Assembly (NCBI GenBank): GCA_030532125.1
Contig: JAUNLU010000003.1
Location: 90,491 to 154,490, forward strand
Source of the DNA: Trueperella sp.
GTDB lineage: Bacteria; Actinomycetota; Actinomycetes; Actinomycetales; Actinomycetaceae
DNA: 64,000 nt
Direction of reading: 5' to 3'
In this document: positions 18,168 through 54,611 of the stretch, piece after piece
How positions within the stretch are numbered: position 1 is the first letter of the stretch
Layout: each line of letters opens with the position of its first letter
Program-made: the position numbers and the translations under genes
Notes under the pieces: model-generated
The model's input: only the letters and a program-made list of their open reading frames with translations
What the model was told of the DNA's origin: nothing
Database searches by the model: none

Positions 18168-19292
18168 TTAGGACTGAAAGTGGTCCCAGCCGCCCAGTCC
18201 AGCTGTCTCTTTTCCAGCTATAGTTAATCTCCCACTCTGATTTACTCCACGCACAGTACCTATTCGAGTAAATCCAGCGGGGACCGGGTCATCTGCGCCG
18301 ATAGTAGCTAAGAAGCCGTGGTCTTCTCCACCAGTGAGTAACCAATCGCGCCGGTTAGCTCCTAATCGCCCAGCGGCAGCTGCGAGCGGACCCAGTTTGG
18401 CGTCCAGGGCCCGCTTGTCGAGGTCTATCCACACTTGTGCGGCTTTCGCCATCCGGCGACCGTCCCGCACTAAGCCATCGGATACGTCCATCATGGCATG
18501 TAGCTGCATATCACTTGCCGCTTGTAGCGCCGTCACCAGTGGGGGCTGCGGCCGCAAGAAGTGGGCAATCAATTCTGCAAATTGTGTATTAGGTTTATTG
18601 GCCTCCGGGTGCTGCCATTGTGCTGGCGCTGCGGCGTCAGCAGCTGAGGCGTTTTGCGCCGCTGAAATCAGGGCTGCTGTTACCGGATCAGAGATGTCCA
18701 CTGCAGTTTCCGCATTGACTGCACCACTGGCCCCGGCCGCCAAGGCTTGACTGCGCAGCGCGCCGTCATTGCCATATCCAGCTTGCAGCAGTTCGCCGCC
18801 AGCAGCTCCATACCCCATTTTTCCACTGTGGATAACTTGATCTCCGGGCCGGGCACCGCTGCGCAAAACTGGCAAGCGCCCTTCCATATCGCCCAGCACT
18901 GTAACTGAGATGGCGATCTTTTCACCACCCACGAAATCTCCGCCGTCTACCCCTACGCCCAATTCCGAATTTGCCGCCGCAAAACCCCGGCACACATCTT
19001 CCACCCAGGAAACTTCCAAATCGGCAGGTAACGACATCCCTACCACCAGGGAAACTGGGCGGGCTCCCATAGCTACCGCATCAGCTAAATTTTGCATCGC
19101 CGCCCGATAGCCAACGTCATATCCGGTAAACCATTCGCGGGTGAAATGGTGCCCCTCAATCAGCATGTCGATTGAAACTGTGGTTTCACCGCGCATCTTA
19201 AGCACTGCCGAGTCGTCGCCAGACGGCACAGTTACCCCGCGCGCCTGCGGCAGTAACGGAAGAATACGGGAAATTAGAACGTCCTCAGTCAT
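18168..19292 (-). CDS. thiL: Thiamine-monophosphate kinase
   Basis: ATP-dependent kinase making thiamine pyrophosphate from thiamine monophosphate. It shows the family motifs GDDSAVL, the metal-binding SIDMLIEGHHF, DGGDF and MDVSDGLVRD. From the ATG at 19292 (MTEDVLISRILP) the protein has 374 residues, longer than usual because of an alanine-rich insertion of roughly 50 residues before HFLRPQPP. The frame is open further upstream, with candidate ATGs at 19307 and beyond. None has a clear ribosome-binding site, so the start is inferred from homologous N-termini. The chosen start codon lies inside one arm of a long inverted repeat. Confidence 0.88.
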   Translation of the reverse strand: MTEDVLISRILPLLPQARGVTVPSGDDSAVLKMRGETTVSIDMLIEGHHFTREWFTGYDVGYRAAMQNLADAVAMGARPVSLVVGMSLPADLEVSWVEDVCRGFAAANSELGVGVDGGDFVGGEKIAISVTVLGDMEGRLPVLRSGARPGDQVIHSGKMGYGAAGGELLQAGYGNDGALRSQALAAGASGAVNAETAVDISDPVTAALISAAQNASAADAAAPAQWQHPEANKPNTQFAELIAHFLRPQPPLVTALQAASDMQLHAMMDVSDGLVRDGRRMAKAAQVWIDLDKRALDAKLGPLAAAAGRLGANRRDWLLTGGEDHGFLATIGADDPVPAGFTRIGTVRGVNQSGRLTIAGKETAGLGGWDHFQS

Positions 19293-19349
19293 ATCCGAAA
19301 TAAGCATGCTCACCATCATGCCATTTCTAGCGGATATGACCGAGGACGT
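19279..19349 (-). repeat. thiL: Inverted repeat over the thiL start codon
   Basis: ACGTCCTCAGTCATATCCG (19279-19297) and CGGATATGACCGAGGACGT (19331-19349) are inverted copies, 18 of 19 matching, separated by 33 bases. In the thiL transcript the single mismatch becomes a G-U pair, so all 19 positions can pair, and the 3' arm holds the predicted ATG of thiL. The outer copy also reads as a short MTEDV start on the plus strand, which suggests an inverted duplication of the first codons. Confidence 0.8.
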
Positions 19350-19545
19350 AAGGCGATTTATCAGGTAGGTAATCCAGGTATCGCCTGCGGTCGGGCTCAC
19401 CCCCCAACCGCGACCTGGTCACCCCAAGTTTTCTGAGTGTGGGCAAAGCCGCACCTAGTAACAGATTCACTGCACTAGCACCAACTGAGCCGCGACTCAC
19501 TTCAGTAAGTATATGGGGTCACCCTGGATCACGCAAGTAAGCTGA

Positions 19546-20088
19546 CTAGGAATTTTCCTTCACGAATTCCACAAAGGCATCGAGCCAGCGCTGCAGGAAT
19601 GCTCGGGTGCCTTCATCGGTAACTTTCCGATCATCCAGCAGTCCCGACGCCTTTGCAGAGATGTATCCTTCTGGCTGTCCCATAATCTTTGGGTTGAAGA
19701 AATCCAGCGAAGATCGCAACATTTTTTGCCCGAGCGCGGTCGCCACTGAGGACTGCGAAGCACCGATCGTAGCGATTGGCTTGCCGGATAGTGTCCAGTT
19801 CCCAGCCGGACGGGAGGACCAGTCCACTGCGTTATGCATTGCTGGGGTGTAGGAGCGATTGTGCTCTGGGGATACGAAGATGACGCCGTCTGCCTCGCTC
19901 AGGATTTCTTTTAGTTTCGCAGCGGCGGGTGGGAAGTCGCTCTCTAGGTCACGGTTAAACAGCGGTAAATCTTTGATTGGAGCTTCGATCAGCTCCACTC
20001 CTTCTGGAGCTAGCTCCACCAGTGCTTCAGATAGTGCACGGTTAATAGAGTCAGCCGCCAGCGAGCCGACCAGATAAGCAATCTTCAC
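19546..20088 (-). CDS. NADPH-dependent FMN reductase family protein
   Basis: Flavodoxin-like reductase of 180 residues in the NADPH-dependent FMN reductase/ChrR group. The N-terminal phosphate-binding pattern IAYLVGSLAADSINRAL and the core VSPEHNRSYTPAMHNAVDW typical of the family are visible. Such enzymes reduce quinones, azo compounds or metals with FMN; the physiological substrate cannot be read from sequence. A 253-base gap with the inverted repeat separates it from thiL, so joint transcription is uncertain. Confidence 0.85.
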   Translation of the reverse strand: MKIAYLVGSLAADSINRALSEALVELAPEGVELIEAPIKDLPLFNRDLESDFPPAAAKLKEILSEADGVIFVSPEHNRSYTPAMHNAVDWSSRPAGNWTLSGKPIATIGASQSSVATALGQKMLRSSLDFFNPKIMGQPEGYISAKASGLLDDRKVTDEGTRAFLQRWLDAFVEFVKENS

Positions 20089-23544: not shown

Positions 23545-26529
23545 CTAGTTCTTCCTGCGCTTAGCAGATGTGAGGATAACCCCACCAGCCAACAGCGAAA
23601 TTCCAGCCAAGACCAGCGGCAACACATCCGCACCCGTATTAGCTAACGAGGACCCAGAGCCCTGAGATGATGGACCCCCAGTCACCTCATCAACCGAGGT
23701 AGGTGGCTCAGTTGGTGTTTCACAGTTTGTGCTTAGATCTGCACTCCAAGTCCACTCAGTTTGCGCGTCGTCAGCCAGAACGTATCCATCCAGAACTTTT
23801 GCTCTTACAATGACGGTCTGCCCATAGTCATACACAAAACGACCATCGCTATTAGCAGTCAGTTCTTCACCGTCAACCGTTACCGAGTAAACGACGCCTT
23901 CAGTCTCTACCACCTCAGCATAGGGCTGCACCGTACATGAGAACGGATCGGATGCAGATGGGTTAACGAAAATCGGGTCATTTGGCCTTACCACAGGCGT
24001 TGATGGCCCCAACGGGCAAAGCCGCCCAGCAACACTAAGCTCCCACTCAGTATCACCAACAACCTTCAGATTGTCACCCTTAAACTCATCCTTCAAAGAC
24101 GCAGTCACCTTAACAATCGACCCATCCTTAACCTGCTGGTAATCAAAATAAGTCGAATCAGGAATAACAACCGTACCCTCAACACCACACTGACTAGCCG
24201 CCTCAACACTAGGCACCAAAGCCTTCACACTAGCCGGCAACAACGGGCAAAGCCGCCCAGCAACACTAAGCTCCCACTCAGTATCACCAACAACCTTCAG
24301 ATTGTCACCCTTAAACTCATCCTTCAAAGACGCAGTCACCTTAACAATCGACCCATCCTTAACCTGCTGGTAATCAAAATAAGTCGAATCAGGAATAACA
24401 ACCGTACCCTCAACACCACACTGACTAGCCGCCTCAACACTAGGCACCAAAGCCTTCACACTAGCCGGCAACAACGGGCAAAGCCGCCCAGCAACACTAA
24501 GCTCCCACTCAGTATCACCAACAACCTTCAGATTGTCACCCTTAAACTCATCCTTCAAAGACGCAGTCACCTTAACAATCGACCCATCCTTAACCTGCTG
24601 GTAATCAAAATAAGTCGAATCAGGAATAACAACCGTACCCTCAACACCACACTGACTAGCCGCCTCAACACTAGGCGCCAAAGCCTTCACACTAGCCGGC
24701 AACAACGGGCAAGCCTCGGGGTCCACGTCCTCGAACTTCCACTCAAATACAGCATCGGAAGGAACTTCAAAGAGGTGCTTATACTCGTCTACAATCTGGG
24801 CTTTAACAGTTATATATGCAGACCCAGTTACCTGCCCGTTATCGTCAAGATCCTTGTTGTAGGAAACCTTATAGGTGAACGGATTAGGCTCTCCAGGATT
24901 CGGTCCCGTCGTCTCCGGCTTAATCACCTTGCCCGGAACGCCGCACTTATCTGATTTTTCAAATTTCGGCGCTAGCGGAGAAACAATCTGTTTGTAAGCA
25001 AACGAGGCTGTATCTATCTTGTTTGGTCCAGCGAAATTATCGGCTTCTTCTGTATACCCCGTACCGTTATATAGAGTAGCCGTATAAGTGCTACCTGTTA
25101 TCGCATCCGTGGGAACGGTGAACGCGCATTCTTCGATTAATCCAAACGATGTGATGTTTTCACATTTAGAAATCTCGTTTCCGCTGCCATCTTTCCACAG
25201 GATGCTGTTAGCAAGCAGGCTGCGCCCCTCTATTCGGGGGATAACCTTAGTGACTTTGTCATTCACAACTTGTTTATCCAAGCTGATCTTCAGATCATAA
25301 TAAGGAACTACCGCAAAATCGAAAGCAGTAATCTTTTGCTTGTTGCCATTAGGAGGCACCGTACCCGGTTCAACTAAAAGACCGGTCTGATTTGGGTGAC
25401 TGAATACGTTATCCGCATAGGCGGAGTATGAAGGAAATATATTACCGTTCGGATCTTCGACGAAGGCATAGATCGTTTTGCCTTCGTTGTAAACTTCAGC
25501 GGAACTGAACTTCACCGAGTATTTACCCGTTTTGTCGACAGGGCTATAAACTGTTTCAGCAACACAGTCTGAACCATCCAGCAGTTCCTTGGTGGCACTA
25601 ATCCATTCTTCTTTAGGTTTGGTTTCAGTGATCGCCATTGCCTGAGCTTGGCAATCTGGTTTCAAAACAGACGCCACAACCTTGTAGCCTTCCGGGAAGA
25701 AGTCTTTACCGTTATCCTCACCGATTTGCATTGCAGGACCGCCAATCTGGGCGTTAGAACCTGCTCTTTCAATCCAAACCCTACCCTGCACGGAATAAGG
25801 CTCCTGTTTCCTCAATCGCGAAGTGTATACAGAGGTGGTCTTAAGTCTCGGCTCAGTGGTCATATACGACGCTGGCATCTGGTAAGCACCAAGGCGAATA
25901 TTACTCATTGACTCGCCATCAGAAATCCCGCCGAGATTAAACCTGTAGCTAAATAAGGAAGAATCTGGTAAGCCCGGATTACCCATACCAGAAACACCAT
26001 CATTCATCAATATGACCTTTGAGCCCGTTACTTCATCCGTATAAGACTCAAACCAAATCTTAAAATCCTGATACAGTTTGGAATCATCGGATGAGAAGTT
26101 GTGCCCGGGGCGGAATACATGCTCTTTCCCAAACGCATCTACCCAGCTAGGGATAGTGAAAGCAAAGCTGCCATCCCTAGCTCCCTCAATGTCGTTGCTA
26201 GTTTGGGTTACGTAGATGGGCGACACCTGCCCGTCGATATCTCTCCAGTGGAAGTAAATATTAATGCCTGCAGGTAATGAAGGATTGGCATCGGGACGTT
26301 CAGTAACCTGAATTGTTTCGGTAAGTAGCGCCGTCCACCCCGTAACGCTTGTACCCTCACTAACGCCATCAGCTGTGGCAGGGATAGCATCAGCCGTACT
26401 GAGACCGGATGGAGCCGGAACTGGATCGGCTGCGACCGCATTAACAGGTACTGCTGCTAGAGCCCCAAGCGCCAAGACTGCTGCAGTGACGTAGGCAAAT
26501 ACAGCTTTGCGTCCTTCTGCTTTCCGCAT
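23545..26529 (-). CDS. Wall-anchored surface protein with tandem repeats
   Basis: A 994-residue secreted protein. A signal peptide (about 1-35, ending near NAVAA) is followed by a long ectodomain of unrecognised fold, three 77-residue repeats (about 609-839), and a C-terminal sorting signal: LANTG at 962-966, a hydrophobic helix, then KRRKN. LAxTG motifs are associated with class E sortases of Actinobacteria. Each repeat contains two cysteines (CPLLPA and SQCGVEG), which could form disulfides. GGGAGA precedes the ATG. No sortase gene is nearby. Adhesion or fibrillar surface display is a reasonable guess, but no ligand-binding domain was recognised. Confidence 0.82.
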   Translation of the reverse strand: MRKAEGRKAVFAYVTAAVLALGALAAVPVNAVAADPVPAPSGLSTADAIPATADGVSEGTSVTGWTALLTETIQVTERPDANPSLPAGINIYFHWRDIDGQVSPIYVTQTSNDIEGARDGSFAFTIPSWVDAFGKEHVFRPGHNFSSDDSKLYQDFKIWFESYTDEVTGSKVILMNDGVSGMGNPGLPDSSLFSYRFNLGGISDGESMSNIRLGAYQMPASYMTTEPRLKTTSVYTSRLRKQEPYSVQGRVWIERAGSNAQIGGPAMQIGEDNGKDFFPEGYKVVASVLKPDCQAQAMAITETKPKEEWISATKELLDGSDCVAETVYSPVDKTGKYSVKFSSAEVYNEGKTIYAFVEDPNGNIFPSYSAYADNVFSHPNQTGLLVEPGTVPPNGNKQKITAFDFAVVPYYDLKISLDKQVVNDKVTKVIPRIEGRSLLANSILWKDGSGNEISKCENITSFGLIEECAFTVPTDAITGSTYTATLYNGTGYTEEADNFAGPNKIDTASFAYKQIVSPLAPKFEKSDKCGVPGKVIKPETTGPNPGEPNPFTYKVSYNKDLDDNGQVTGSAYITVKAQIVDEYKHLFEVPSDAVFEWKFEDVDPEACPLLPASVKALAPSVEAASQCGVEGTVVIPDSTYFDYQQVKDGSIVKVTASLKDEFKGDNLKVVGDTEWELSVAGRLCPLLPASVKALVPSVEAASQCGVEGTVVIPDSTYFDYQQVKDGSIVKVTASLKDEFKGDNLKVVGDTEWELSVAGRLCPLLPASVKALVPSVEAASQCGVEGTVVIPDSTYFDYQQVKDGSIVKVTASLKDEFKGDNLKVVGDTEWELSVAGRLCPLGPSTPVVRPNDPIFVNPSASDPFSCTVQPYAEVVETEGVVYSVTVDGEELTANSDGRFVYDYGQTVIVRAKVLDGYVLADDAQTEWTWSADLSTNCETPTEPPTSVDEVTGGPSSQGSGSSLANTGADVLPLVLAGISLLAGGVILTSAKRRKN
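24011..24703 (-). repeat. Three tandem 231-bp repeats in surface-protein gene
   Basis: Three units of exactly 231 bases (77 codons) begin near 24011, 24242 and 24473. They appear identical by eye except for one base, which changes Val to Ala in the copy nearest the N-terminus. Such DNA identity points to recent duplication or ongoing gene conversion, and the copy number is likely to vary between strains. Confidence 0.93.
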
Positions 26530-54063: not shown

Positions 54064-54073
54064 ATAGACCAGG

Positions 54074-54119
54074 AATAAGACCCCAGTTACCTTGTGGTGA
54101 CTGGGGTCTTATTTATTTT
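54074..54119 (+). terminator. Rho-independent terminator
   Basis: AATAAGACCCCAGT (54074-54087) and ACTGGGGTCTTATT (54100-54113) form a perfect 14-pair stem, followed by TATTTTC. It ends the lipoprotein transcript 10 bases after its stop. Confidence 0.93.
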
Positions 54120-54243: not shown

Positions 54244-54611
54244 TGGTGGAGGCGGGGAGAATCGAACTCCCGTCCGACGATGTAAAACCCAAGGCTTCTC
54301 CGGGTGCAGTCTGCTACCCGTAGTTTTCGGCTCCAGCACTCACGCAGACGAGTTGCTGACGAACCTATTCGCCTAAAGTCGCTTGCGCCCCGGCGAACCG
54401 GACGCAAACCAGTGGCTTTCTAAAACGACGCCAGAAACTAACGCGAAAGCATCGTTAGGCTGACGGATTCGAGTCTCGCTTAGGCAGCGAGAGCGAAATC
54501 AGTGTTCTGCTTGTTGGCAGTTATTTTTTTGCAAAGATCGTTAAAGAGATGACTTTGCATCCTCTACCCGCTTCCCTTGCGTCATCACCGCCGTCGAAAC
54601 CGATCGCCCCC
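54244..54611 (-). ncRNA. ssrA: Transfer-messenger RNA (tmRNA)
   Basis: The minus strand carries a 368-base tmRNA. The 5' GGGGGCGATCGG and 3' CGCCTCC-A-CCA form the tRNA-like acceptor stem with CCA encoded, and the T-arm GTTCGATTC is present. The tag frame reads GCC AAC AAG ... GCC TAA, giving ANKQNTDFALAA after UAACU, the expected position of the resume codon. It rescues stalled ribosomes with SmpB, encoded just upstream on the same strand. Confidence 0.97.

Follow-up and report, generated by a model that had tools for sequence, protein, structure and literature searches.

A conserved hairpin overlapping the start of thiL that may terminate upstream transcription and enclose the gene's own promoter

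The window, by which we mean the whole 64-kb stretch of DNA that was analyzed, belongs to a genome of 1.47 Mb (G000) and carries thiL on its minus strand. The gene product was identified as a thiamine-phosphate kinase by a TIGR01379 match above cut-off. An inverted repeat lies at the start of the gene and a structured leader directly 5′ of the repeat. The features of the locus are as follows, with the basis for each given in parentheses.

18168-19307, minus strand: thiL coding sequence, proposed start codon ATG 19307-19305 (open reading frame, TIGR01379, conserved ATG)
19271-19278, minus strand: T-rich stretch TCTAATTT directly after the stem, proposed U-tract (T-excess and codon tests)
19279-19297, minus strand: inner (3′) arm, covering thiL codons 4-10 with ATG 19307 as codon 1 (repeat search, fold, comparison of thiL loci)
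19304-19321, minus strand: apical stem-loop within the spacer, GCATG (19321-19317) with CATGC (19308-19304) (fold; invariant in six species)
19315-19323, minus strand: TGGCATGAT, proposed extended -10 box of a thiL promoter (conserved in relatives; function putative)
19331-19349, minus strand: outer (5′) arm in the thiL-sense RNA, ACGTCCTCGGTCATATCCG (repeat search, fold; same arm in eight other species)
19351-19357, minus strand: 3′ strand of a proposed pseudoknot, ATCGCCT, separated from the outer arm by a single base (relatives' alignment; window pairing by eye)
19374-19418, minus strand: leader helices P1 (19418-19413 with 19379-19374) and P2 (19410-19404 with 19394-19388) (covariation, R2 model; window pairs by eye)
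19380-19386, minus strand: 5′ strand of the proposed pseudoknot, AGGCGAT (relatives' alignment; window pairing by eye)
19395-19403, minus strand: loop of P2, GGGGTGAGC, read 19403-19395 (window read by eye)
19546-20088, minus strand: upstream gene, NADPH-dependent FMN reductase family (PF03358)

A preliminary description of this DNA had reported two inverted arms of 19 bases around 33 bases, with one mismatch compatible with G-U pairing, and our repeat search and the sequence itself confirmed this. The arms are complementary at 18 of 19 positions, and the mismatch, read off the sequence, corresponds to G-U when the thiL sense is transcribed. In the window this was the single inverted repeat of its class (19 bp, at most one mismatch, spacer of at most 200 nt); by chance about 0.003 would be expected (hand arithmetic, even base composition). 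The 71-nt sense RNA (19349-19279) folded at -41.4 kcal/mol with 18 uninterrupted stem pairs, so that the transcript would contain a stable G+C-rich stem of the kind found in intrinsic terminators. A recent one-off duplication was ruled out by the presence of the outer arm in the other species, and a genomic repeat family by a search of the own genome with the 71 nt, which returned the query itself and four matches of 14-24 nt. Phage origin was ruled out as well, there being no match. The window holds another strong inverted repeat, with a short spacer, at 54073-54114; it adjoins the tmRNA gene (54244-54611) and is probably that gene's terminator.

The preliminary description placed the thiL start at an ATG inside the 3′ arm. 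This codon (19292-19290) is ACG or ACC in six of the nine same-genus genomes, whereas the ATG at 19307-19305, inside the loop, is kept in all nine; the arm ATG is therefore unlikely to be the start. The same account's remark that no start codon has a good ribosome-binding site was borne out by eye, as no well-placed Shine-Dalgarno sequence was seen. Nor was any conserved small open reading frame seen by eye upstream of thiL, the frames differing between species. Farther along the window, at 23545-26529 on the minus strand, a large secreted-looking protein is encoded. Read by eye, it has a LANTG-type sorting end and three near-identical tandem blocks, each of about 70 residues; Pfam gave only a sub-threshold DUF6093 match.

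Our genome collections contained one genome per species and, thus, every comparison is one among species rather than strains. An outer arm that pairs with thiL codons was found in 9 of 213 family genomes, with a spacer of variable length: six of the nine in the genus (G000-G004 and G007) and one in each of three other genera. The remaining genus members, G005, G006 and G008, are without the outer arm. In an alignment of six sequences, 91.0% of cells pair compared to 86.2% in shuffles, and slid versions of the alignment drop to 29-41%. Compensatory changes in both arms, which the preliminary description had suggested looking for among relatives, were present: six pairs changed on both sides, a count equaled by 2 of 500 shuffles, and the covariation score was matched by none of 500. 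The apical stem is invariant in the six aligned species and so gives no covariation evidence. A model of the hairpin (R1) was then run over the 213 family genomes and hit 23 of them at E ≤ 0.5. Nine matches were strong (E ≤ 1.8e-6) and all were at thiL, in the six genus genomes above and in G120, G143 and G024, which were absent from the training set. The best E in the other 14 genomes was 0.0088 or more, and none of the four inspected was a thiL start.

At 70 thiL loci of the family, we also tested how well the first 45 bases of the coding sequence pair with the sequence upstream, relative to shuffled upstream sequence and leaving out the last 14 nt before the start. Pairing was far stronger than in the shuffles for the nine hairpin species, with z scores of -3.6 to -7.0, and p was below 0.05 at 12 of the 70 loci; for the 61 species from other genera, among them three with the hairpin, the mean was -0.2. 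One further genome, G074, which has a GC-rich patchwork pairing and no TGGCATGAT, scored -3.7. The test was null for G005, G006 and G008 (z 0.5 to 1.8), which were not counted as hairpin species; their thiL starts fold fairly well, ranking third of 17, third of 17 and second of 19 gene starts. A strong fold was seen at the thiL start in all nine hairpin species. The sense strand folded better than the antisense in nine of nine (p = 0.004), but hairpin-less species lean the same way (p = 0.003), making this weak evidence. Taken together, we are highly confident that the hairpin structure is conserved. On a ThiL tree that is weak, with 116 columns, the hairpin needs six changes, three of them forced by well-supported branches, and it clusters more tightly than in most shuffles (5 of 500 as low). 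In some hairpin-less species thiL lies only 7-31 nt behind its neighbor. The hairpin is either old, with losses at places such as these, or was gained more than once.

The loop contains a promoter-like element. In the window, TGGCATGAT is 7 nt ahead of ATG 19307, and the same sequence precedes the ATG by 6-7 nt in all nine hairpin species, and also in 6 of 61 that are without a hairpin; in G005, G006 and G008 the corresponding place, 6 nt from the same ATG, reads TAGGGT or TAGTCT. Since the element also occurs without the hairpin, at nearly fixed spacing, we read it as the putative -10 box of a leaderless mRNA. According to the available part of a study of Corynebacterium glutamicum, 33% of its mRNAs are leaderless, with TAnnnT 3-11 nt from the start site (PMC3890552). 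The thiL element resembles these leaderless promoters of Actinobacteria in being a -10-like hexamer at a set distance before the start codon. It differs from what that part of the study describes in reading CATGAT, which departs from TAnnnT at the first base, and in lying in the loop of a conserved hairpin. A fixed -35 element was ruled out, as its distance to the -10-like box varies by 4 nt between species. The arrangement TGGCATGAT-N6/7-ATG suggests that transcription begins inside the loop, an outcome that the preliminary description had named as contrary to its own proposal, and that the main thiL mRNA is leaderless, starting at ATG 19307 without the outer arm.

Directly after the stem, thiL is unusually rich in T. 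The 12 nt after the TED codons include 5-7 T in the nine hairpin species, and 5 or 6 T in only 3 of the 61 others, although the proposed U-tract is imperfect and interrupted. The T excess over gene background was 0.281 in the nine compared to 0.050 in the 61 others (p = 2e-6) and to 0.056 in 30 species of nearer genera (p = 9e-6). With amino acids held fixed and synonymous codons drawn from local usage, which could be done at the 31 of 70 loci that were long enough, the nine hairpin species had 54 T where 42.0 were expected (z 4.1), and 22 species without the hairpin had 74 where 72.6 were expected (z 0.4). Individually, only one of the nine reached p < 0.05. In six shifted control windows, z lay between -1.6 and 2.7 for the hairpin species and between -3.0 and 2.1 for the others. 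These statistics treat related species as independent; the signal after the stem stands out, though not hugely. A terminator scan restricted to loop sizes of 3-8 returned no entry for the thiL-start hairpin. A simple custom scan with a rough upstream-stop finder looked for conventional terminators in the stretch that separates the upstream stop from thiL; it detected one in 3 of 22 hairpin-less species and in none of the nine that have the hairpin. With so few conventional terminators among the hairpin-less species, a terminator at thiL is evidently not always needed.

The P1/P2 leader was found directly 5′ of the outer arm in five of the nine hairpin species (G000, G001, G002, G003 and G120). 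Leaders of the last four have in common helix P1, helix P2 closed by a 9-nt loop in which GGUGAG occurs, and a GGCG/CGCC pairing that may form a pseudoknot. In the alignment of these four sequences, 93.5% of cells pair compared to 78.3% when shuffled, changes on both sides are seen in ten pairs, and none of 500 shuffles reached the covariation score (0.457). This covariation comes almost wholly from P1 and P2, and one of the five pseudoknot pairs covaries; in the window, seven bases of the two pseudoknot strands pair by eye. We consider the pseudoknot probable. The window copy, which was excluded from the model of P1 and P2 (R2), was recovered by it at 41.5 bits (E = 2e-10 in 113 kb). R2 searches of whole genomes, in which filtering was stricter and few candidates were scored, did not pick up this copy and so can miss diverged ones. 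At E ≤ 1 they gave matches in 87 of 213 family genomes, among them the four whose sequences make up the model, and in 19 of 396 phylum genomes at E ≤ 0.01, the best at 2.1e-5. Among the loci fetched, a strict leader pattern was confined to the five thiL leaders and was absent from the nine weak R2 loci inspected; the weak matches were therefore treated as chance.

The leader thus has the conserved, covarying structure looked for in a new riboswitch class, in five species only. It seems to go with thiL, because the genes upstream differ by eye (the reductase in the genus, ddl in G120). No conserved antiterminator pairing was seen by eye, and Rfam 15 gave no plausible match. Just downstream of the reductase stop, at 19508-19536 on the minus strand, is a weak promoter-like pair, TTGCGT-17-TATACT, which our consensus scan did not list; it could be the start of a leader transcript. 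A separate observation concerns the intergenic stretch upstream of thiL in Actinobaculum massiliense FC3 (NZ_LN881717.1), which holds a perfect inverted pair, CTGTCTCTTATACACATC / GATGTGTATAAGAGACAG. We take this pair to be the end of the Tn5/Nextera sequencing adapter and, for that reason, it is probably an assembly artefact in the public record.

We propose, with about even confidence, that the repeat acts at the RNA level as an intrinsic terminator or attenuator overlapping the thiL start, and that thiL is expressed as a leaderless mRNA from a promoter in the loop. RNA made by polymerase arriving from upstream would carry the outer arm, which would fold with thiL codons 4-10 as the descending arm, and transcription would then stop in the U-rich codons after the stem. 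Any RNA that read through would have its start region locked in the hairpin. The gene's own transcript, starting in the loop, would lack the outer arm and so would escape. In the five species that have it, the leader may set how often transcription stops. Against this proposal speak the long loop that the terminator would have, the interruptions in the U-tract and the departure of CATGAT from TAnnnT. From sequence comparison we infer the promoter activity, the leaderless start, the termination and any regulation by the leader.

The preliminary description favored a translational switch, in which the start codon of long thiL transcripts is buried in the hairpin until a signal opens it. Its structural basis held up, as the hairpin is conserved, the fold is strong in all nine species with a structured leader in five, and the start ATG lies within the apical stem in the six aligned species. 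However, the proposed loop promoter would yield an mRNA without the outer arm, there is no ribosome-binding site available to hide, and the T-rich codons, superfluous for a switch, favor a terminator. We regard the switch as the main role of the hairpin as unlikely, while a translational effect on read-through transcripts is possible. Another explanation is mutational: template switching during replication copied the thiL start upstream and keeps the arms alike, leaving a hairpin with no function. The outer arm does repeat coding bases in inverted form, species with the hairpin are scattered over the weak ThiL tree, and, according to the available portion of one study, hairpins with compensatory changes can arise and be maintained through template switching (PMC8794818). 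Yet the hairpin is kept between distant species in four genera, T-rich codons occur only where the stem is present, and a separate covarying leader adjoins it. Template switching may have made the outer arm but by itself leaves the T-rich codons and the leader unexplained, and we find it quite unlikely as the full account. Long near-perfect stems of this size are substrates of RNase III, so the hairpin could also be a site for RNase III or other processing, or a 3′-end protector, between the upstream gene and thiL. Such a role would not require the U-rich codons and has nothing specific in its favor; we judge it improbable.

The proposed terminator shares a stable stem with known intrinsic terminators and terminator-based attenuators, and the T-enriched but interrupted stretch after the stem may correspond to their U-rich stretch. 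It differs in that the descending arm and the U-tract are codons of the downstream gene, and the 33-nt loop has its own stem and a promoter-like box. A close likeness is to the HMP-PP riboswitch (thiS motif), which, in the part of the report available (PMC6478431), combines a thiamin-pathway gene, a long extended hairpin serving as intrinsic terminator, and a pseudoknot. As that part describes it, the HMP-PP aptamer lies inside the terminator stem, followed by a run of six or more U. At thiL, in contrast, the leader is a separate element ahead of the stem, the U-tract is not a perfect run, part of the stem consists of codons, and the loop contains a promoter-like box; the locus had no plausible Rfam match, though Rfam 15 may not include the HMP-PP family. 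The TPP riboswitch (RF00059), which controls thiamin genes, is present elsewhere in all nine genus genomes and was ruled out at thiL, where its covariance model had no match. The window's genome has two TPP matches above cut-off (C2:482616-482722 and C4:90349-90455), and seven of the nine genus genomes have one. Actino-pnp RNA (RF01688) is likewise a long actinobacterial hairpin, but its matches were far below cut-off (21.1 and 12.7 versus 47.7 bits) and on the opposite strand. In titles and the starts of abstracts of the CC-licensed PMC literature, we found no description of a thiL leader RNA or of a promoter in a terminator loop. The separate parts are of known kinds; what is new is their nesting, together with a leader that has no plausible Rfam match.

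A bolder and rather doubtful reading is that the P1/P2/pseudoknot leader and the thiL-overlapping terminator form an undescribed class of cis-regulatory RNA, possibly a riboswitch for a compound of the thiamin pathway, that controls how much transcription continues into thiL; a second promoter, leaderless and unregulated, would then lie within the terminator's loop. If the proposed arrangement is true, one piece of about 70 bp would combine three roles, ending transcription that comes from upstream, acting as a promoter and supplying the opening codons of a housekeeping gene. The hairpin would stop the transcription of neighbors and spare the gene whose promoter is in its loop. Terminator finders that search between genes and expect short loops would miss such a layout. 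The leader, without a plausible match in Rfam 15, would be a concrete candidate for an RNA that regulates the final step in making thiamin pyrophosphate.
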